The notes under the pieces were generated by a model that was given only the letters and a program-made list of their open reading frames with translations, had not been told where the DNA came from and did not search any database. A stretch of 64,000 bases of DNA from Deltaproteobacteria bacterium (GTDB lineage: Bacteria > Desulfobacterota > Syntrophobacteria > Syntrophobacterales > Syntrophobacteraceae). This document shows, piece by piece, positions 10,204-60,667 of this stretch (position 1 is its first letter; every line of letters begins with the position of its first letter). The stretch is taken from the NCBI GenBank assembly GCA_021777755.1, contig JAJYDE010000004.1, positions 62,001 to 126,000 on the forward strand. The letters are read 5' to 3'. Made by a program: the position numbers and the translations under genes.

Positions 10204-12333
10204 ATGCTGTATCTGATGATGACAAAAATGGGTGGATTGATAAACCAAATTGGAGCCAAGATTTTCCCTTGGTTCAAAAATGACTTCGTCGCTCCTTTCC
10301 TGGCCGGTGCAATCGGAATATTCGCGCTCGTCATATTGCTGTATTTCCTGTTCCGCCGTTTTCTTCCCGCATTCATGCAACTTTCCGGTTGCATGAGGCG
10401 GCTGAAATCGTTCGCATCGTGGGAGGAATTTTCGAGGGCGGAGAATTTTAACGGCTTTAATGCGTACATGGAACAAAAGAAACTTTTCATGCACGCCTGG
10501 AAAGAGTTCTGCAAGACCATTATCCGCCCAAATGAAGACGAATCAAGAGCGATATGGATTACCGTCCGGCCGTCGGTGTACCTGAATGCGGCGGATTTGG
10601 AGGGCAATCTAAGACTCAGGAGCCTCCATTCCTGGAGCAACATACTGGTTGGCATCGGTCTGCTGCTGACGTTTTTTGGCCTCGTAGCGGCCCTTTCCTT
10701 TGCCTCTCAAGGCATAAGCAGCGCGGTGGCAAGCGTGGCCGCCTCCGCGCTGAAAAACGGCGCACATTCTCAGGTCACCGCGCAGACGGATATCCAGAAC
10801 GCACTGGTGGAGCTGTTGCATGCGGCCAGTTTTAAATTCTGGACATCAATAGCTGGCCTGGGTTGTTCCATCCTTCTGACATTATGTCACAAATGGATGT
10901 CCAGATACATTGAAGGCCGGCTTGAAGCAATGTGCGCCAAAATCGAATCCCTGACATTTCCGGTCACGCCCGAATGGCTTGCTGATCGAGAGTACAAGGC
11001 AATACGGCAACAGTCGGATCAGCTCAAGAACTTTAATGATACACTCGCGGTCACGCTCGGACAGGCCCTTGAGAAGGCAATCGAGCGCTCAATGCCGGTC
11101 CTCATGAGCGCCGCGGTGGCCCCTGTCGTCGAACGACTGGACGACATGCCGCGCAGTAACGGCGAGACATTCCGCAACGCGCTGAACGACGCGATGCCCC
11201 AGGTAATGACATCGGCGATTTCGCCACTCTCCGGCCAAATCGGGAGCATGATCGAAGAACTCAACCTGCTTAACCAATCGATGGTGAACTCGCTTACAGA
11301 GAAGTTCGGAGACGTTGTAACGGCGAACGCCGGGACGGAACTGAGGGAACTTGCCACCACGCTCGGGCAGGTGAGAGAAACGCTTGCGGCGACCTCTCAA
11401 AGTGTGGGCGACAGTGGAAGCAAAATGTCCGACCAACTCGGCGAAGCCGCCTCGGAACTGCGAAGCGCCGTAAAATCACTCGTGGAAATGGTGGAAGGCA
11501 TGTCCCGCGGCGTGGAATCGGATTTGTCCAGGACACAATCCGCCCTTCAAACACAGTTGGCCTCGGTGGGGGACAACCTGAAAGTGTTGGCTGAAGGAAT
11601 AAAGGGATCTCTTGCGGAAATGGGCGGGCAATTGAAGGATTCATCGCTTCGGGCGGCGGAAGCGTTCAACGAGGAAATCGCTGGCGCGGTCAAACGGATC
11701 GAAACAGCGGCCGAAACGGGCGCCACGTCGCTGGCGACCCTTGTGGACAGCCTTCGGACGGCCTCCAGTGAAGCGACAGGGGCTCTGGCCGACCAGACCG
11801 CTGGAGCATCGAGGGCAATGCGGGAGGCTGTCGAGCGAATAGCCGCCTCATTGGATTCGGCCTCGCGCAACATGTTGGATGGCGCCTCAGAAGCATCCGC
11901 CCAGATATCCTCGCGCCTTCTCGATTCCATCAGAGAACTCAAAGACGCCGCCAGGCAAAACGCAGGGCAGATCGAGGAGGCGGTAAGGGCGATTACAGTG
12001 GCCGGACATGCCGCGACCCAAACGGTCGGCGACGCCGCCAACAGGACGGGTGTCGAGCTGGATGAAAAAGGCCAACTTGCCGCTGGCAGGCTCGTCTCGG
12101 GAGCAAGCGCCGTCCTGGAAAATCTGTCCAATGCTTTTGATGGCTTCAATGAAAGGACCAATTCTTTGAAGTCAGCCCTTGAAGTCATCGAGAACAGGCT
12201 TGCCACGCATGCCGCGGCTCTGAGAAAAGTCAATGAGTCGGCGCAGTCCACGGTCGATGCGATGGCCGGCACGGCCAGAACTCTCAAAGACTCGACCGGA
12301 CCGCTCACACAGGCCGAACAGGGGCTTGCGTGA
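10204..12333 (+). CDS. zorA: ZorA, Zorya motor subunit (ends at an in-frame TGA)
   Basis: This is the MotA-like subunit of a type I Zorya anti-phage system. Three membrane helices are visible (about 29-51, 147-166 and 211-229), followed by a long Ala/Ser/Glu-rich coiled-coil cytoplasmic tail from about residue 235. In characterised Zorya, ZorA5B2 forms a proton-driven motor whose long tail transmits the phage signal. The start has GGGAGAGG upstream. The frame is halted by TGA at 12331-12333 after 709 residues, yet continues in the same frame for 123 more codons of coiled coil. CGA (Arg) to TGA is the simplest origin. The membrane domain and most of the tail survive, but the tail tip would be lost. 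Confidence 0.9.
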   Translation: MLYLMMTKMGGLINQIGAKIFPWFKNDFVAPFLAGAIGIFALVILLYFLFRRFLPAFMQLSGCMRRLKSFASWEEFSRAENFNGFNAYMEQKKLFMHAWKEFCKTIIRPNEDESRAIWITVRPSVYLNAADLEGNLRLRSLHSWSNILVGIGLLLTFFGLVAALSFASQGISSAVASVAASALKNGAHSQVTAQTDIQNALVELLHAASFKFWTSIAGLGCSILLTLCHKWMSRYIEGRLEAMCAKIESLTFPVTPEWLADREYKAIRQQSDQLKNFNDTLAVTLGQALEKAIERSMPVLMSAAVAPVVERLDDMPRSNGETFRNALNDAMPQVMTSAISPLSGQIGSMIEELNLLNQSMVNSLTEKFGDVVTANAGTELRELATTLGQVRETLAATSQSVGDSGSKMSDQLGEAASELRSAVKSLVEMVEGMSRGVESDLSRTQSALQTQLASVGDNLKVLAEGIKGSLAEMGGQLKDSSLRAAEAFNEEIAGAVKRIETAAETGATSLATLVDSLRTASSEATGALADQTAGASRAMREAVERIAASLDSASRNMLDGASEASAQISSRLLDSIRELKDAARQNAGQIEEAVRAITVAGHAATQTVGDAANRTGVELDEKGQLAAGRLVSGASAVLENLSNAFDGFNERTNSLKSALEVIENRLATHAAALRKVNESAQSTVDAMAGTARTLKDSTGPLTQAEQGLA

Positions 12334-12702
12334 GCAACCGGCGCGCTCGGGCAGTCGGTTGACCGCCTATTCGAAAATATGCGTCCCGTACAGCAGGAAT
12401 TGGGGCGGCTTTCAAAGGAAACCTCCGGGACCTTGGAAAAACTTCAAGGGGTTTGGGAGCGACATGAGAACCGTTTTAAAGATGTTGACGCAAGCCTTGC
12501 CAAAACAGTTGAAATCATGATTGGCAACCTCAAGAGCAATGCCGCCGGATTCAGCGAATACATCGCAAAAGTGGACAGCAATCTTGCCCATACCGTGGGC
12601 CTGCTTGCGGGCAATGTAGATGATTTGAGGTATACCGCCGAGGAGGTTCGAAAGGCGACCGAGCATTTGCATAGCGGCAACGGTTCTTCCAGTGCCAGAT
12701 AG
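12334..12702 (+). pseudogene. Severed distal tail of ZorA
   Basis: This continues zorA in the same frame beyond the TGA, starting ATGALGQSVDRLFENM and running 123 codons to a natural stop 16 bp before zorB. The composition (heptad-like, rich in Leu, Glu and Lys) matches the preceding tail. An internal ATG at 12379 exists but without a clear ribosome-binding site. With it, ZorA would be about 832 residues. Immediately after the TGA an AACCGGC...GTCGGTT hairpin (11-nt loop) can form, but no evidence for selenocysteine recoding exists. Confidence 0.82.
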
Positions 12703-12718: not shown

Positions 12719-13474
12719 ATGGCAATCTCCAGGCGGTTTCATGTAAGCGGGCATACGGAAGAGGGGTATTTCGCCTCGATGACCGATATGATGATAGGCA
12801 TGTTGTTCCTCTTCATCATCATGCTGATGTTTTTCGCCCTCAAATTCAACCAGGCGGCCGCGCAGCAGCGCAAGACGCTGAAGGACCTTGTAGGCGCGGA
12901 CGATACGAGAAAAGAGCTTCTGAAAAATATCAAAAGGTCGATGGAAAAGGAGGGGGTTTCGGTGACATTGGATACTGAAAACGGCATTTTGCGCCTGCCC
13001 GAAAGCATCCTTTTCGATAGCAACAAATCAGAATTGAGCGACCAGGGAAAGGACGCCTTGAACAAGCTGGCGATGTCCCTGGCAAAGGTCCTGCCCCGTT
13101 ACACGTTTCTCCAGGGTCAAGACAACAGTGGGATGGGGCCGCGCTCACCCCACGGCATCGAGTCGATTTTTGTCGAGGGCCACACGGATAATGCCGGGAG
13201 TGCGGACCTCAATTGGCGGCTTTCCGTGGATCGGGCATTCCACACCTATCAAGCCTTGATCGGCGCACAACAAATCCTGGCGGAGCTTCAAAACCGGAAT
13301 GGACAGCCGGTGCTGAGCCTGGCAGGGTACGGAAAACAGCGTCCCGCATATCCCAACGACACGCCTGAAAACAAGAGGCTCAATCGGCGCATCGATCTGC
13401 GCTTCATCATGTCTCCGCCACGCGTAACCTCAAAACTGGAGGATATTCCGGAGAAAGGGGGGGCCGCGCCATGA
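12719..13474 (+). CDS. zorB: ZorB, MotB/OmpA-like stator subunit of Zorya
   Basis: This is a 251-residue partner of ZorA. A short cytoplasmic N-terminus leads into one membrane helix (about 20-40) with Asp23 at its start (ASMTDMMIGMLFLF), the position of the proton-carrying Asp in MotB-like stators. The C-terminal periplasmic OmpA-like domain (about 90-235) should bind peptidoglycan and has IESIFVEGHTDNAGS and NKRLNRRIDLRF motifs. It lies 16 bp after the end of the zorA frame and overlaps zorC by four bases (ATGA). The gene is intact. Known Zorya work places ZorA and ZorB in an inner-membrane motor complex that senses phage invasion. Confidence 0.93.
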   Translation: MAISRRFHVSGHTEEGYFASMTDMMIGMLFLFIIMLMFFALKFNQAAAQQRKTLKDLVGADDTRKELLKNIKRSMEKEGVSVTLDTENGILRLPESILFDSNKSELSDQGKDALNKLAMSLAKVLPRYTFLQGQDNSGMGPRSPHGIESIFVEGHTDNAGSADLNWRLSVDRAFHTYQALIGAQQILAELQNRNGQPVLSLAGYGKQRPAYPNDTPENKRLNRRIDLRFIMSPPRVTSKLEDIPEKGGAAP

Positions 13475-14865
13475 ATCTCAAATCATGCCTGGAGAGTTTT
13501 GATGGGCCGATAATCATCCCCCCGCCGCCCCTTGCTCGCGAACCGCGCATGCTGAAGGCAAGGGAGCATGTGGAAAGGAAACTTGAAGCCTTGTACGCCA
13601 ATCCGCCCGGCCTGGATATTGAAGAGCTTCATAGTCGCCTAAATGCCGCCGTCGTTTCGAACATTTGGGATAACATTGCCGACCGGGAATGGAGATACGT
13701 CCCGCTTTGCCTGACCATAGGTTCGCCCAGCCTTCTCGAAAACCAAAAGTTCATGAATTTCTACCTGGCCAGATTGAGCCAAGACCCCAGCCGCCTGGCG
13801 TTGCGCCACTTGATCAGAATCTATCTGCAAGAATTCAACCCCGAGGTTTTCGGGATTAGCGCCATCGCCGTTTTTCTGGCCGGCAGGACCGATTTGGAGG
13901 CAGAATGGGCGCAGAGGCATCGGGAGATCGATCTGTTCTCCGTCGGGAAAGCTCCGGTCAGACTCGCGGAGATGGCGCTGTCGGCCGATTCACCCGTCGG
14001 TTTTCTGTCGAACGTGGGCTTTGAACTCTCCTATGAATCGGCACGGCTTGCCGGACACGCGTTTATCAACGCTTTACTGTGGCTTGAACAGACTCTCAGG
14101 CGGGCGCCCTCCACAGGCCCGATTCTGAAGGTGATGAAATGGGCGATGAAGGAAGATAGACAATTCCGGTATCCATCGGTTCCCCGTATTGGAACTAAAT
14201 TGGCGGAAACACTTCTACTGCCATGGGAGGCCCATGATCCGCCGGAAGATGTGAAATATTTAATAGAACGGTTCATGTTGGACAATTACGGAGATCTTCG
14301 CGTCAACCGGTCCAAATGGATCGGCGTGAGGGAGGAAGCGCAGGCGGTAATGAGGCGTTGGCTCACAAAGATGTCTCTCGACTGGTTCCTGACCGTCGTT
14401 GATGAAACCACCACCAAACCCGAGGTGAAGCACATGTGGCCGGCGCGCCGGAAATTCTGGAACGCTTATCAGCGCCGCGGGTATATGCAGGAGGCATGGG
14501 TGATTTTCGGCAGGGTCGGAACGGACCACGCCACCAAGGTGGCCAGGAGGAAGCCAGAGGACCGGGCCTTGACGCGGAGCTTCGGCAGACTTCAAGGCGG
14601 GGGAATTGCAACGGAGCACGCCGTGCTTTTGATGCGCGTAGGAGATCTCACCATAGCCGACTGGAACTTCAACGGCAAATGCCACATATGGCTCGCGGGA
14701 AACTCCAAGGCTCCGAAGCTCTACCGTCAAGAGTACGATCGGTTCGAGCTTACGAATAATTCCAATTTTCAGCAGGTGCACCATACGGGCGCTTGGCAAA
14801 GTTCGATTTACGATTTTATACTAAAGTACACGGGGGCTTCGATGCCCAGACCGGATTACATGTGA
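13471..14865 (+). CDS. zorC: ZorC, EH_Signature-domain protein of type I Zorya
   Basis: This 464-residue soluble, largely helical protein ends in the EH_Signature domain that defines ZorC: conserved Glu-His in TEHAVLLMRVGDLTIADWNF (about 383-402), then the HIWLAGN segment and a C-terminal VHHTGAWQ. It overlaps zorB by four bases and precedes zorD by 19 bp, so the four genes form one operon. In characterised systems ZorC binds DNA and is thought to be recruited by the ZorAB motor together with ZorD. Its presence with an SNF2 protein, and absence of an HNH-type ZorE, makes this type I. The frame is intact. Confidence 0.9.
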   Translation: MNLKSCLESFDGPIIIPPPPLAREPRMLKAREHVERKLEALYANPPGLDIEELHSRLNAAVVSNIWDNIADREWRYVPLCLTIGSPSLLENQKFMNFYLARLSQDPSRLALRHLIRIYLQEFNPEVFGISAIAVFLAGRTDLEAEWAQRHREIDLFSVGKAPVRLAEMALSADSPVGFLSNVGFELSYESARLAGHAFINALLWLEQTLRRAPSTGPILKVMKWAMKEDRQFRYPSVPRIGTKLAETLLLPWEAHDPPEDVKYLIERFMLDNYGDLRVNRSKWIGVREEAQAVMRRWLTKMSLDWFLTVVDETTTKPEVKHMWPARRKFWNAYQRRGYMQEAWVIFGRVGTDHATKVARRKPEDRALTRSFGRLQGGGIATEHAVLLMRVGDLTIADWNFNGKCHIWLAGNSKAPKLYRQEYDRFELTNNSNFQQVHHTGAWQSSIYDFILKYTGASMPRPDYM

Positions 14866-14884: not shown

Positions 14885-17800
14885 ATGAAAATGACTGCCA
14901 AATTCGAATATACCATCCTCGATGAGGCCGATGCCATACGCATCGAGCTGAGGGAAAGAAAAATCATCGGCGCAGGGAGGATTGTTCCTACTCGCGAATG
15001 GGCACTCAAGGTTGATGGCGCTCACATGACGGGCGCGGCGCGTCTTCTGGCCGTCGCCGATAAATGTGTCGATGATGAAAAGCCCGCCGCGGTTCGAGAC
15101 GAGACGGGAATCAACCTGTCTCACACTTTCGTAGCCTCCCTTGAAGAATATATCGCGCTAAAGGTCGGCTTGCCTCGCAGCACCGGTCTGGTGCTTGGAA
15201 TCGATTGCAAGGGCAACGTCGCGCAGCCCGATTTCGACCTGAGCGCCCGATGGCTTTCCATGGGAACGACTCCGGCGATCGGGGTGGGCGTAAATGGAAG
15301 CATTCTGAACCACGCCGGCGAGCAATGGCGCGTTCCCCAGCCTCTTTTCGACCTGTGGGACAAGATACGGGAGTTTAAAAGGACCGACACCCGCGACGAT
15401 CCGACGCGGTTTCGTCTTGTAGCGGAAATAATCGGCTTATTGCCGTCTGAAGAACAAGTTCGTCTGAAAACCGAAAGATACTTGAGGCGCATCAGGATAG
15501 CCCATCCCACCTCTTTTTCGCTTCGTCTCGGCGCCGGTCCCGAGGGATTTCGATGCGATCCTGTTCTGTTCGGCGCGAAGGTCCGAGACCGTTGCTTCTC
15601 ATCCGACGAGCCGCGCGCCGTAAGCGAAACGGAAAGTCTTCTGCCCGACGCGGCGCAACGGGTCTTCGCGGATGAACGCTTCCCCGCATACGATGAATGC
15701 AGGGACCGTTACGCCCTGGGGGACGGGTATTACGTCTATATCGAGCCAGCCCTTCGTGAGGCTCTTACGGTCGTTCGAAAAGCCCAGGGAGCCGACCAGG
15801 ACATTCGAAGACGCTTCGCCCTGAATCCCCAAGCATACCTTAAGGAAGCGCTTGGTGAAACGCTACCGGAATCGGTGATCGAGCAACTCTTCATTCCGAC
15901 CGAGCAATATTCGGAGCGAGTGCGGGACTTGGGGCTCTGGCAGCCGGTCGTTCTTCCCTGGGTGAAAAGGGAACCGAATTCATGGCTCCCGGAACGTTTC
16001 GGCATAATGGTGGGCGATACCAGAATAGAACTTGAGTCAAAAGACGTGGCGAAGTTGGAGGGGTCGTTGAGGGACGCGGTTTCAAGTGGAAAACCCGAAG
16101 TAGATTTCGGGGGGAAAAAAATTCCCGCCACTGATCAGGCACTGGATACCCTTGAACGACTCATAAAGGTAGTCAAGCCGCCCGAGGATAATGCGGCTGA
16201 GCCTCAGCGGGGATTCACAAAATCGAATTCAGGATTGATATTTCTAACTGTTGAAGAAAATTATGAAGCTGTTGCGTTCGCGCGCCGTTGCGATGCCCGT
16301 CATTCGCAGACGCCCGGTTTCCCGCCGTCCGTTCGATCCACGCCAAAACCGCACCAGGAGGATGGGCTTTGCTGGATGCAAGAAGCTTGGCGGAGCGGAC
16401 TCCCGGGTGTTTTGCTAGCTGATGACATGGGGCTTGGCAAGACCTTCTCCGCCCTGTGTTTTCTCAGTTGGTTGCGGGAATTGTTCCTTACGAAAGAACA
16501 GGAACGCCGGCCCTTCCTTGTTGTCGCCCCGACCAGCCTGCTCAAGAATTGGGAAAAGGAGCATGATGATCACCTGCACGACAAGGGGCTGGGAGAAATC
16601 CTGCGCGTGTACGGCGGCGAAATCAAACGGGTCCGGCTCTCAAGAAGAATGACGGGTCGGGACACGGAGCTTGGCGAGCCTCAGCTGGACGCACAGCGCC
16701 TTCGCGAAGCCGATTGGGTCCTCACCACCTACGAAACCCTTCGGGATTATCATTTGAGTTTTGCGGCGGTGCATTTTGCAGTGGCAGTATACGACGAAAT
16801 GCAAAAAGTGAAAAATCCCGCATCGCAAGTCGCAACCGCAGCCAAGGTCATTAACGCCGATTTCACCCTCGGCCTGACCGGGACCCCCATCGAGAACCGC
16901 ATTGAAGATCTCTGGGCCATTTTCGACATAATTCATCCGGGCTTTCTGAAGGACCTCAAGGGCTTCTCCGCTTCTTACCGGGACCATGACCTGGACGCTC
17001 TGAAAAGACTCAAGGAGCAATTGACAGCTCCGGGGAAAAATCGGCCCGCCCTGATGTGTCGAAGGATGAAATCAGACCATCTGCCCGGCCTGCCCACAAA
17101 AACCGTTGAAGCGATCAGGGCCGCTATGCCCTCCAAGCAGGCGGAGGCATACGATGAAGCATTGGCGGGAGCAGCTCGCAACAAAGGGCGTGCGATTCTA
17201 TCGACTCTGCAGAATCTGCGCTCCATTTCGCTTCATCCAGTTTCCCCCCAGCAACAGACGACCTACGGGGATGATTACATCAAGTGGTCGGCAAGACTCT
17301 CTCAGACATTTCAGATATTGGACCGGATCGCCGAAAGCCGGGAAAAGTGCCTTATTTTTTTGGAATATTTGGAAATGCAGGAGGTTTTGGCCGCTCTGAT
17401 ACAACGGCGATACAGGCTTTCTCGCCAGCCGCTGATCATTAACGGTTCGATACCCGGCCCCAAGCGCCAGTTGGCGGTTGACGAGTTTCAGAGCCGACGC
17501 AACGAGTTCGAGGCGATGATACTTTCTCCCAAAGCAGGCGGTGTCGGACTTACCCTAACAGCGGCAAACCACGTCATCCACCTGTCGCGATGGTGGAACC
17601 CGGCCGTCGAAGATCAGTGCACGGACAGGGTTTACAGGATCGGTCAAAATCGTGAAGTCCACGTCTATTATCCGATGGCGGTGCACCCGGACCCGTCGAT
17701 CCGCGAATACAGCTTTGACCTGAAATTGCACGAACTGCTCGATAGAAAGCGCTCGCTCAGTCGCGATGTCCTCATGCCCCCGGAAAGTTTCGAGGATGCG

Positions 17801-18244
17801 TCCCGCTTATACGATGAAATTTTGAGAGTGCCTCGGGAAGGCGATGCGGGTCGGGGCGCTTCAACGCCGTCCGTCAATTTGGAGGATATAGACCGCATGG
17901 ACGCGATCCAGTTTGAAAACTGGGTACTGACAAAATTGGCGGGCAACGGTTTCAATGTCAGCAGAACCCCCGCCAGCGGCGACGGCGGCGCTGATGGAAT
18001 TGCGGTTGACCGTACCACCGGTTCGGAGATGATCGTTCAGTGCAAGCACAGACAAAAAGGGCACTGCGACGACTCGCCGATCGATGATCTCCTACGCGCT
18101 CGCACAAGGTATGATCTCCAGGAACCTTTGCTCGTAGCATTCAGTAATGCTCGTTTTTCAAAAAAAACAGAAGACAGGGCAAAATCTTACGGTATCATTC
18201 TGATTGGTAGGGAAAAAATTAATGAGCGATGGCTTTTAGCGTAA
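14885..18244 (+). CDS. zorD: ZorD, SNF2 helicase with C-terminal Mrr-like nuclease domain
   Basis: This 1119-residue effector has an N-terminal ~480-residue region, an SNF2-type helicase core and a nuclease tail. Walker A LADDMGLGKT lies near residue 515, the DEAD-box equivalent DEMQ near 637, LTGTPIENR near 670, and helicase motifs V-VI (SPKAGGVGLTLTAANHVIHL, DRVYRIGQ) near 880-925. The last ~120 residues carry an Mrr/restriction-endonuclease-like fold with GDGGADG and QCKH catalytic motifs. ZorD is the DNA-degrading component of type I Zorya. Start ATG 14885 follows GGGGAGT. No disrupting stop is present, so the effector seems intact even though zorA is interrupted. Confidence 0.93.
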   Translation: MKMTAKFEYTILDEADAIRIELRERKIIGAGRIVPTREWALKVDGAHMTGAARLLAVADKCVDDEKPAAVRDETGINLSHTFVASLEEYIALKVGLPRSTGLVLGIDCKGNVAQPDFDLSARWLSMGTTPAIGVGVNGSILNHAGEQWRVPQPLFDLWDKIREFKRTDTRDDPTRFRLVAEIIGLLPSEEQVRLKTERYLRRIRIAHPTSFSLRLGAGPEGFRCDPVLFGAKVRDRCFSSDEPRAVSETESLLPDAAQRVFADERFPAYDECRDRYALGDGYYVYIEPALREALTVVRKAQGADQDIRRRFALNPQAYLKEALGETLPESVIEQLFIPTEQYSERVRDLGLWQPVVLPWVKREPNSWLPERFGIMVGDTRIELESKDVAKLEGSLRDAVSSGKPEVDFGGKKIPATDQALDTLERLIKVVKPPEDNAAEPQRGFTKSNSGLIFLTVEENYEAVAFARRCDARHSQTPGFPPSVRSTPKPHQEDGLCWMQEAWRSGLPGVLLADDMGLGKTFSALCFLSWLRELFLTKEQERRPFLVVAPTSLLKNWEKEHDDHLHDKGLGEILRVYGGEIKRVRLSRRMTGRDTELGEPQLDAQRLREADWVLTTYETLRDYHLSFAAVHFAVAVYDEMQKVKNPASQVATAAKVINADFTLGLTGTPIENRIEDLWAIFDIIHPGFLKDLKGFSASYRDHDLDALKRLKEQLTAPGKNRPALMCRRMKSDHLPGLPTKTVEAIRAAMPSKQAEAYDEALAGAARNKGRAILSTLQNLRSISLHPVSPQQQTTYGDDYIKWSARLSQTFQILDRIAESREKCLIFLEYLEMQEVLAALIQRRYRLSRQPLIINGSIPGPKRQLAVDEFQSRRNEFEAMILSPKAGGVGLTLTAANHVIHLSRWWNPAVEDQCTDRVYRIGQNREVHVYYPMAVHPDPSIREYSFDLKLHELLDRKRSLSRDVLMPPESFEDASRLYDEILRVPREGDAGRGASTPSVNLEDIDRMDAIQFENWVLTKLAGNGFNVSRTPASGDGGADGIAVDRTTGSEMIVQCKHRQKGHCDDSPIDDLLRARTRYDLQEPLLVAFSNARFSKKTEDRAKSYGIILIGREKINERWLLA

Positions 18245-29047: not shown

Positions 29048-29833
29048 TCACCGTACCGTTTCCGGTTCGGGCGGGCAACGCAAGCGCCCCAGTAACTCCC
29101 CGGCCATGGCCCCGATTTTGAGGTGGACAAAAGAGCCATCCTGGAACGTGCGCACTTCGGCGGGGTCGTCGAGCAAAGGGGCAAGAAGGGCCGCAAGCGC
29201 CTCCGGTTGCGGGTGGCTCTTTTCAAAAGGGGCGAGCCATAACAGTGTCTTTAGCGCAAGGGCTCTTTTTACCGGGTCGCAAGATTTCAATTGGGCAACA
29301 ATCGGGCCGGTCCAATCCAGCAAAAGCCGGGGCCTTTTTTGGGCAAGCCTGCAAATTCCCCACATGACCCCGCGCTCCAATAGATCGTTTTCCAACGGGT
29401 TTCCGTGCTCGTCTATGTAGGACACAAGGATTCGATGATATTCCAGGGCCAGATTTTCGTTTTCGGCCATGATTTCGCCCATCGCCTCTGGAGCGCCCCA
29501 GCCAATCCCGCCCGATTCGTCGTTGAGGCTCCACATGAGGCGCCGCATGATCTCCCGGGCCGCGTCGAGGTCCTTTCGGGCAAGTGCGGACACCGTGAGG
29601 CCCAGACCCCTTACCGCCCTGCACCTGGCCAGTTCGTTGGTTTCGAAAAGAAAGCCGAGCAAAAGGTTGATGATTTTTGCCGTAGTCAATCCCGCAGTTT
29701 GGAGCGCTTCTTCGAAATCGCGGGAATCGAGAAAAGAGCGAACCAGCGCCTTGGCACCCAGTCCTGCGCGCGCGGCCTCTCCGGCAATATGCTCACTCAC
29801 CTCCTTCAATGTCTTTTCCGCTCCATCTTTCAA
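29048..29833 (-). CDS. HEAT-like repeat protein of the DVU0298 family
   Basis: This protein of up to 261 residues is all-helical and matches the DVU0298-type HEAT-like family found in sulfate reducers and relatives: RCRAVRGLGLTVSALARKD, RRLMWSLNDESGGIGWGAPEAMGEI and LERGVMWGICRLAQ. The family has structural but little functional data. Start choice is weak: TTG 29833 has no clear ribosome-binding site and TTG 29809 is an alternative. It overlaps the 3' end of ubiX by up to 41 bp, suggesting coupled translation. Confidence 0.8.
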   Translation of the reverse strand: MKDGAEKTLKEVSEHIAGEAARAGLGAKALVRSFLDSRDFEEALQTAGLTTAKIINLLLGFLFETNELARCRAVRGLGLTVSALARKDLDAAREIMRRLMWSLNDESGGIGWGAPEAMGEIMAENENLALEYHRILVSYIDEHGNPLENDLLERGVMWGICRLAQKRPRLLLDWTGPIVAQLKSCDPVKRALALKTLLWLAPFEKSHPQPEALAALLAPLLDDPAEVRTFQDGSFVHLKIGAMAGELLGRLRCPPEPETVR

Positions 29834-30374
29834 ACAGGTTGTGTTCGATTCCGAAAAAGTCGAATATCTTTCCGATGGTATGATCGATTATGTCCTCGAT
29901 CGTTTTGGGCCGATGATAAAAGGCGGGCGAAGGCGGAAGGATATGGGCGCCCAAGTCGGCGGCCATGCTTAGCAGGCGCAGATGTCCCTTGTGAAGCGGC
30001 GTTTCCCTGACCACAAGGCAGAGTTTGCGTTTTTCCTTGAGCACCACATCGGCGGCCCGCACCAGGAGGTTTTCGCCGTAAGAATGGGCGATCCCCGAAA
30101 GGGACTTTATCGTGCACGGTACGACTACCATCCCTTCAGTCAAAAAGGAGCCGCTCGATATCGGGGCGGCCATGTCCCGTTCGTCGTAGGTGAAATCCGC
30201 CAGGGCCGTCACGGTATCGATCGAGCGGGAGGTCTCGATTTCGATGTTTCGTTTACCGTTTTGCGAAATAATCAGGTGAGTTTCGTAATCCGTCTGTTTG
30301 AGGAGTTCAAGACACCTGAGGCCGTATATCACCCCGCTTGCACCTGAAATCCCCACGATGATGCGTTTTTTCAT
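29793..30374 (-). CDS. ubiX: UbiX-type flavin prenyltransferase
   Basis: This 193-residue enzyme makes prenylated FMN, the cofactor of UbiD-type decarboxylases. It starts with IIVGISGASGVIYGLRCLELL, has the SSGSFLTEGMVVVPCTIKSLSGIAHSYG region and ends with the PPSPAFYHRPKTIEDIIDHTIGK motif. ATG 30374 gives the family length; the upstream extension from 30425 is not conserved-looking. A UbiD partner is not present in the window. It overlaps the next gene. Confidence 0.95.
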   Translation of the reverse strand: MKKRIIVGISGASGVIYGLRCLELLKQTDYETHLIISQNGKRNIEIETSRSIDTVTALADFTYDERDMAAPISSGSFLTEGMVVVPCTIKSLSGIAHSYGENLLVRAADVVLKEKRKLCLVVRETPLHKGHLRLLSMAADLGAHILPPSPAFYHRPKTIEDIIDHTIGKIFDFFGIEHNLFERWSGKDIEGGE

Positions 30375-58956: not shown

Positions 58957-59601
58957 ATGAGTGCGCTCGAAAAAACTCTCATCTATCGTTTGGTTCATAT
59001 TGCGAACCTTGCCATTTTGCTCCAGAGGGGCGGACTTTGCGCTCCCCTTCATGAGCCGAGCGACGGAATGGTTTACAAAAAAATTCACAACGCTGAAATT
59101 CAGAATCATCGGTAAGTGAAACCTATCCCGTGTGGGCCTGGCGGTAGGATTCACGACTACGTCCCATTCTATTTTTGCACCCGCTCTCCGATGCTGTACA
59201 TCCTCAACAAAGGTGGGGTAGAAGGCTATAGCGAGGGGCAAGAACCTTTGATTTACCTCGTAACGACCGCCCAGAAGGTGGCCGAAAATGGAGTCCCTTT
59301 CGTTTTTTCAGACGGTCACGGCATAGCCAGCTTCACCGATTGGTATTGTGATTTGGCGGATCTGAATAAAATTGACTGGGAGGTTATCCAGTCGAGGTAC
59401 TGGGCTGACACCCTTGAAGATGGAGATCGAAAGCGGAGAAGGCAGGCTGAGTTTCTCATCCACCGCTTCTGCCCATGGTCCTTGATATTGGGAATTGCCG
59501 TATTAAATGATAAAATGAAGAAGCAAGTCGAAGCAATTTTGGCGCGTTTCCCTGGCGAAAAGCGCATACAGGTAGTGGTTAAGACAGATTGGTACTACTA
59601 A
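58957..59601 (+). pseudogene. darT: DarT DNA ADP-ribosyltransferase toxin, interrupted by TAA
   Basis: The frame encodes a DarT-family toxin (DUF4433), which ADP-ribosylates thymidine in single-stranded DNA. The N-terminal part starts at ATG 58957 with TLIYRLVHIANLAILLQRGG. TAA at 59113-59115 interrupts it after AEIQNHR. The same frame then continues VKPIPCGPGGRIHDYVPFYF, CTRSPMLYILNKGG and ends with the catalytic-Glu helix RQAEFLIHRF. The GTG at 59116 could start a 161-residue remnant lacking the NAD-binding His segment. The toxin is therefore probably inactive. Its antitoxin darG follows 22 bp later. Confidence 0.87.
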
Positions 59602-59623: not shown

Positions 59624-60667
59624 ATGATTCAGATGGCAAGCGGGAACCTCCTCATGGCTAAGACCGAAGCCTTGGTAAATACTGTCAACTGCGTAGGATT
59701 TATGGGGAAAGGTATTGCCCTGCAATTCAAGAAGGCTTTCCCTGATAATTTTAGAGCCTACGAACAGGCATGCAGAGCGGGCCGAGTTCAACCTGGTCGG
59801 ATGTTCGTTTTCCAGACCGGCGCGATGTTTAACCCGAAACTTATCATTAATTTCCCCACCAAACGGCATTGGAAGGGGAACTCTCGGATGGAAGATATAG
59901 AGTCCGGCCTGAAAGCGTTGATCGAGGAAGTAAAAGACCGAAACATCAGGTCCATAGCTATCCCCCCCCTGGGTTGCGGTTTGGGGGGACTCAAGTGGAG
60001 CAATGTTCGATCAATGATTGAGGAAGCATTCGCCGGGGTACCCGATGTGGAAGTTAAGCTGTATTCTCCTACGGGTGCTCCTGATGCTGCGTCAATGCCG
60101 GTTAATACGCAAAAACCGAAAATGACTCCTGCAAGGGCGCTACTCATCAAGCTGATGGATCAGTACGCTAAGCTTGATTATCGGCTTTCCCTTCTGGAAA
60201 TCCAAAAACTGGCCTATTTCCTTCAGGAATCGGGAGAACGCTTGAAGCTTAATTACGATACCGGGACTTATGGACCGTATGCTCCAAATCTCAACAAAGT
60301 CCTGGAGATCCTGGAGGGGCATTATATTCGGGGTTACGGGGACAATCAAAAACCTGACGTTCTAGTCAAACTTCTTCCTGGAGCGCCAGCGGCGGCTGAC
60401 GATTTTCTGCAAAATCATGAGGAGTCACGGCAAAGGCTCGACAGGGTTGGTGAGCTTATTACCGGATTCGAAACACCTTACGGAATGGAGTTGCTGGCCT
60501 CAACTCATTGGGTTGCGACACATGCCGTTAGCAAGGCATCAAACGTTGAATCGGCCATTCTTCAGATTCACGAATGGACTGATCGGAAAAGAAGGATGTT
60601 CCAGGAGAAACATATCCGAGTAGCCTGGGGTCGCTTGCAGGAAGAAGGGTGGATAGCTTCGGCATGA
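59624..60667 (+). CDS. darG: DarG macrodomain antitoxin
   Basis: This 347-residue protein has an N-terminal macro domain (about 1-150; NTVNCVGFMGKGIALQFKKAFP and IPPLGCGLGGLKW) that removes ADP-ribose from DNA, and a C-terminal domain (about 170-345) that binds and blocks DarT in characterised systems. GGAGG precedes ATG 59624. The gene is intact although darT is interrupted. A lone DarG would be harmless and might still counter DarT activity from other elements, which is speculation. Confidence 0.92.
   Translation: MIQMASGNLLMAKTEALVNTVNCVGFMGKGIALQFKKAFPDNFRAYEQACRAGRVQPGRMFVFQTGAMFNPKLIINFPTKRHWKGNSRMEDIESGLKALIEEVKDRNIRSIAIPPLGCGLGGLKWSNVRSMIEEAFAGVPDVEVKLYSPTGAPDAASMPVNTQKPKMTPARALLIKLMDQYAKLDYRLSLLEIQKLAYFLQESGERLKLNYDTGTYGPYAPNLNKVLEILEGHYIRGYGDNQKPDVLVKLLPGAPAAADDFLQNHEESRQRLDRVGELITGFETPYGMELLASTHWVATHAVSKASNVESAILQIHEWTDRKRRMFQEKHIRVAWGRLQEEGWIASA

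Follow-up and report, generated by a model that had tools for sequence, protein, structure and literature searches.

The question raised by this locus is what becomes of a type I Zorya defence system when the zorA gene carries an in-frame TGA and the reading frame is intact behind it. The window, that is the whole stretch of 64,000 nucleotides analysed here, contained such a gene, and the best reading is that the stop counts as a loss-of-function in a known kind of system and not as new decoding. With a probability of about 0.75, a type I Zorya operon has here acquired a nonsense mutation in zorA, probably a recent one, and the system is most likely inactive.

Genes of the Zorya operon

A complete type I Zorya operon, zorABCD, was identified on the plus strand of the window from its open reading frames and from PADLOC and Pfam profiles. 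The zorA gene as translated (10204..12333) had 709 codons followed by TGA, and matched the PADLOC ZorA1 profile with an E value of 5.7e-62. Ahead of the stop, the gene encoded the MotA/TolQ-type motor and the greater part of the coiled-coil tail; the MotA/TolQ/ExbB-type motor and long cytoplasmic coiled-coil tail that mark ZorA of type I were present, with the tail cut by the stop. The MotB/OmpA-type protein ZorB (12719..13474, 251 aa; PADLOC ZorB1, E 2.7e-87) was full length, contained the peptidoglycan-binding OmpA domain recognised by Pfam, and its gene ended in TGA. The zorC gene (13471..14865, 464 aa; PADLOC ZorC1, E 3.3e-98) also ended in TGA and encoded a full-length protein with the EH signature domain (Pfam EH_Signature), and zorD (14885..18244, 1119 aa; PADLOC ZorD1, 1192.8 bits) encoded a full-length SNF2 helicase with an Mrr-type nuclease (Pfam SNF2-rel_dom, Helicase_C and Mrr_cat). 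No further lesion was found in zorA, either before or after the TGA, nor in zorB, zorC and zorD.

The in-frame stop and the frame behind it

The TGA (12331..12333, plus strand) was in phase with the ATG at 10204, and the frame stayed intact beyond it, as a preliminary description made from the sequence had reported. The whole frame, including the part after the stop, ran from this ATG to a TAG (10204-12702). The segment after the stop, which would form the tip of the tail, covered 12334..12702 and held 122 sense codons and the TAG at 12700-12702; the 123 codons given earlier were right as to the open frame, and that count included the TAG. The distance of 16 bp from the end of the frame to zorB, whose ATG is at 12719, agreed with the earlier account.

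The segment after the stop is genuine ZorA coding sequence. Its 122-aa peptide alone matched three ZorA1 models of PADLOC, best PDLC00605 over positions 579-697 of 700 (E 2.8e-16), and the ZorA1 profile search of the genome ran through the stop site with one TGA counted. Codon usage was host-like, with a score of 0.232 bit per codon after the stop and 0.254 in zorA before it, while the other two forward frames of the segment had negative scores. When the tail was shuffled 20,000 times by mononucleotide, the frame survived in only 43 cases.

The stop could be an error of assembly or base calling, or the allele of a strain in the minority, the genome being a draft and possibly metagenome-assembled. 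The contig that holds the window is 142,862 bases long and belongs to a draft of 4.2 Mb, whose 103 contigs and 2.84% contamination leave some room for such an origin. The zorA stretch was single-copy in the genome and identical to the window. The change is a lone substitution without any indel, which speaks against an error. No internal stop was met in the 53 ABC-transporter domain matches of the genome, so that nonsense codons are not scattered genome-wide and errors are infrequent, nor was there any in its two HsdR matches. Moreover, the one further clear in-frame stop noted in the window interrupts a second defence gene, darT, a pattern that random error does not favour. An artefact or strain allele is therefore improbable.

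What the truncation removes

Nine ZorA homologues were compared, two of them from the same phylum and the others from Azospirillum, Zymomonas, an Escherichia coli plasmid, Nitrosospira, Polymorphobacter, Polaromonas and a Pseudomonas plasmid. All were distant, with lengths of 529-773 aa, and zorA was open to its end in all nine. Sliding windows of 120 residues within ZorA 561-760 gave less than 8 bits against every homologue, whereas with residues 681-800 the three nearest homologues scored 16, 16 and 10 bits. Judged by these alignment scores, no other piece of the distal ZorA tail is as well conserved as the lost tip. Shorter homologues retained the tip at their C-terminus. A profile of five ZorA sequences aligned nearly end to end with E. 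coli ZorA (PDB 8qyd) when the stop was read through; by this alignment, in which the coiled-coil register is approximate, the E. coli protein goes on for about 121 residues past the equivalent site.

A specific ancestral codon, such as the CGA (Arg) with which the preliminary description restored a normal tail, found no support. No close relative of this zorA was detected and the homologues vary in the residue at this site, so that no particular codon can be put forward as the original one.

The missing segment is the tip of a tail that published work found to be needed, in line with the earlier view that the tail passes on the phage signal. In the type I system studied, point mutations at several ZorA tail positions abolished protection, and so did deletion of the tail (residues 237-696); a cut of the tip only was not among the variants tested there (PMC11890865). 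According to a review, ZorC and ZorD receive the signal by way of the ZorA tail (PMC12409362). Besides the 729-aa chain, the PDB contains ZorA chains cut to 495, 434 and 280 aa, which is consistent with a tail-shortened ZorA still being able to fold. The 495-aa chain lacked a middle stretch and retained the C-terminal tip in the alignment.

It could also be thought that the 709-aa ZorA is a working protein with a short tail, either because it can do without the tip or because the shortening adjusts its trigger or its coupling to ZorC and ZorD. Its length falls inside the range of the open homologues, and zorB, zorC and zorD are full length. Such a variant is unlikely when the piece lost is the most conserved of the distal tail and is kept C-terminally even in shorter homologues, and when, in the studied system, defence is lost with tail mutations as well as with removal of the tail.

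Decoding of the UGA

A tRNA-Sec (anticodon TCA) and SelB were found in the genome, as were two formate-dehydrogenase-like genes, each with a TGA in frame and a good bacterial SECIS (bSECIS) element (L059 and L060, on contigs C38 and C62 of the same genome). With this machinery and these bSECIS-bearing genes, the organism uses selenocysteine, and insertion at the zorA UGA needed testing because UGA is read as selenocysteine elsewhere in this organism. Decoding of the UGA, through selenocysteine, a suppressor tRNA or programmed readthrough, would give a ZorA of 832 aa. Besides the Sec machinery, two features are in its favour: the tail is well preserved, and a hairpin was predicted 2 nt 3' of the TGA (12335..12361, plus strand).

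This hairpin misfitted the bSECIS model, in which the apical loop lies 16-37 nt after the UGA and has G in its first two positions (PMC13188914). Its loop was 11 nt from the UGA, and its energy was about one standard deviation better than that of shuffles (z -0.9 to -1.3), a stability that 3.4% of coding stretches of 40 nt attained. No hairpin at zorA fitted the model; the best allowed one had -1.7 kcal/mol and was matched or beaten by 58% of the background, against -10.1 and -12.5 kcal/mol for the two formate-dehydrogenase controls, which were among the best 3.2% and 1.4%. A Cys counterpart was likewise missing, with no Cys past residue 205, and so none in the tail, in all nine ZorA homologues. 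Selenocysteine at the zorA UGA was rejected on both of these points, in a test for which the formate dehydrogenases of the same genome served as positive controls. General reassignment of UGA was also rejected, for zorB and zorC end in UGA, as an ordinary terminator, at the expected place. There was no Rfam element of note at the stop, and no suppressor tRNA was seen in a search short of a full tRNA census of the genome. Decoding of any of these kinds is very unlikely.

Probable consequences for the operon

The favoured reading, a zorA nonsense mutation, would proceed as follows. One nonsense mutation arose in zorA, probably recently. Translation would end after residue 709 and give a ZorA with the membrane motor and most of the rod, minus the last 122 residues. 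This truncated ZorA may still insert in the membrane and assemble with ZorB, and without its tip the activation signal of the motor would not reach ZorC and ZorD. The operon would then be inactive or nearly so, and most likely give no defence; the truncation makes a loss of phage protection likely. The preliminary description had offered three outcomes, a system switched off, a shorter tail, or readthrough; the first is best supported, while selenocysteine insertion fails and nothing indicates programmed readthrough.

ZorB is probably still made, since the gene has its own purine-rich ribosome-binding region. Its output is perhaps lower because 385 bases of upstream message are now untranslated. 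Neither a terminator nor a promoter was found on the plus strand in this untranslated gap before zorB.

The untranslated part contains an in-frame ATG (12379), 45 bases past the stop, from which a tail fragment of 107 aa could be made separately and join the motor. This idea is hardly credible, as no ribosome-binding site precedes that ATG, no ZorA homologue is divided there, and a free coiled-coil fragment would be unanchored.

Two points go against the reading as an inactivating mutation. One is the lack of a close relative whose zorA is open at this codon. The other is that, apart from the stop, zorA and zorBCD were free of lesions, so the stop is either very young or the short protein is kept for use; similarly, with no second lesion behind it, the stop is young or the tail is still used.

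In-frame stops elsewhere in the window

Another interrupted defence gene was found 47 kb downstream of zorA. It is the darT of a DarTG toxin-antitoxin/defence pair (58957-59601, plus strand), which matched the DarT family over 1-201 of 201 positions with a single in-frame TAA inside (59113-59115), and it is followed by an intact darG (59624-60667). In a relative of the same family (G020) darT was open, and it was 55% identical to the window copy across the stop site. Two defence modules with nonsense codons on one contig suggest selection against them or absent for them, two cases being no statistics.

A further stretch on the plus strand (29439-30341) consisted of same-frame open stretches of 177 and 123 codons with a TAG at 29970 between them; it had good codon scores and no Pfam match. 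The codon-score scan of the window for in-frame stops was noisy and is not a complete census.

The UGA of zorA and the UAA of darT, both in frames otherwise well preserved, might be thought to hold costly systems off until readthrough rises, as could happen under stress or through suppressor tRNAs of a stop-reassigning phage. The two stops differ, which argues against a common suppressor, and no sign of readthrough was seen here, so that gating of this kind is still less probable than decoding of the zorA stop.

Distribution and decay of Zorya in other genomes

Within the class, ZorA was found in one of 56 genomes, the present one. For ZorC, two clear distant relatives and two weak ones were detected among 395 genomes of the phylum. 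A search with ZorD in 60 relatives revealed no close relative of the zorA operon, its matches being to the helicase part only; there was also none in viral contigs, phages and plasmids, and a scan of genome contigs with ZorB gave distant matches only. With ZorA in a lone genome of the class and two clear ZorC relatives in the phylum, the operon was probably acquired, and it is probably dispensable.

In one of the two clear ZorC relatives (G349), zorB was interrupted by about 1.07 kb of inserted DNA (L055:7241-8308), which had perfect inverted repeats of 23 bp and in which no transposase was recognised, so that a second Zorya operon of the phylum is broken by nature.

A similar zorA was present in 87 of 5,426 E. 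coli genomes. Among the 60 matches listed, it was covered in full in 58, as judged by coverage and annotation, and broken in two. One is E. coli 23AR1101 (L071), where zorA has an internal stop, adjoins IS3- and IS30-type elements and is annotated as broken. The other is E. coli Z1323CEC0017 (L072), also annotated as broken, where zorA lacks its N-terminus and zorC is frameshifted. Decay of Zorya occurs, and it is uncommon in E. coli. A literature search on the decay of defence systems returned nothing of use.

Significance and comparison with known systems

A natural truncation of the ZorA tail tip in an otherwise complete operon bears on the question of what the last 120 residues of the rod do. 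A defence-system finder would score Zorya as present here despite the cut motor protein, and zorA and darT in one window make a small case of defence modules that are there in sequence and probably silent. Where an organism makes use of selenocysteine, a TGA inside a frame needs testing before the label of pseudogene is given.

The formate dehydrogenases of this genome resemble zorA in having an in-frame TGA with the frame open on either side; in contrast to them, zorA is without a bSECIS that fits the model and without any Cys counterpart. The type I Zorya systems of E. coli and Shewanella sp. ANA-3 (ZorA in PDB 8qyd and 8vvn) have four genes whose order and families are alike here, whereas the present zorA has a stop 122 codons short of its end. 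Their sequences are also distant, and the 709-aa protein had no phmmer match in the PDB at E 0.01. In E. coli 23AR1101 and Z1323CEC0017 the Zorya genes are inactivated by internal stop, truncation and frameshift, with pseudogene annotation. Those operons bear several lesions, with insertion sequences next to zorA in 23AR1101, while the operon described here is otherwise complete and differs by a single substitution.
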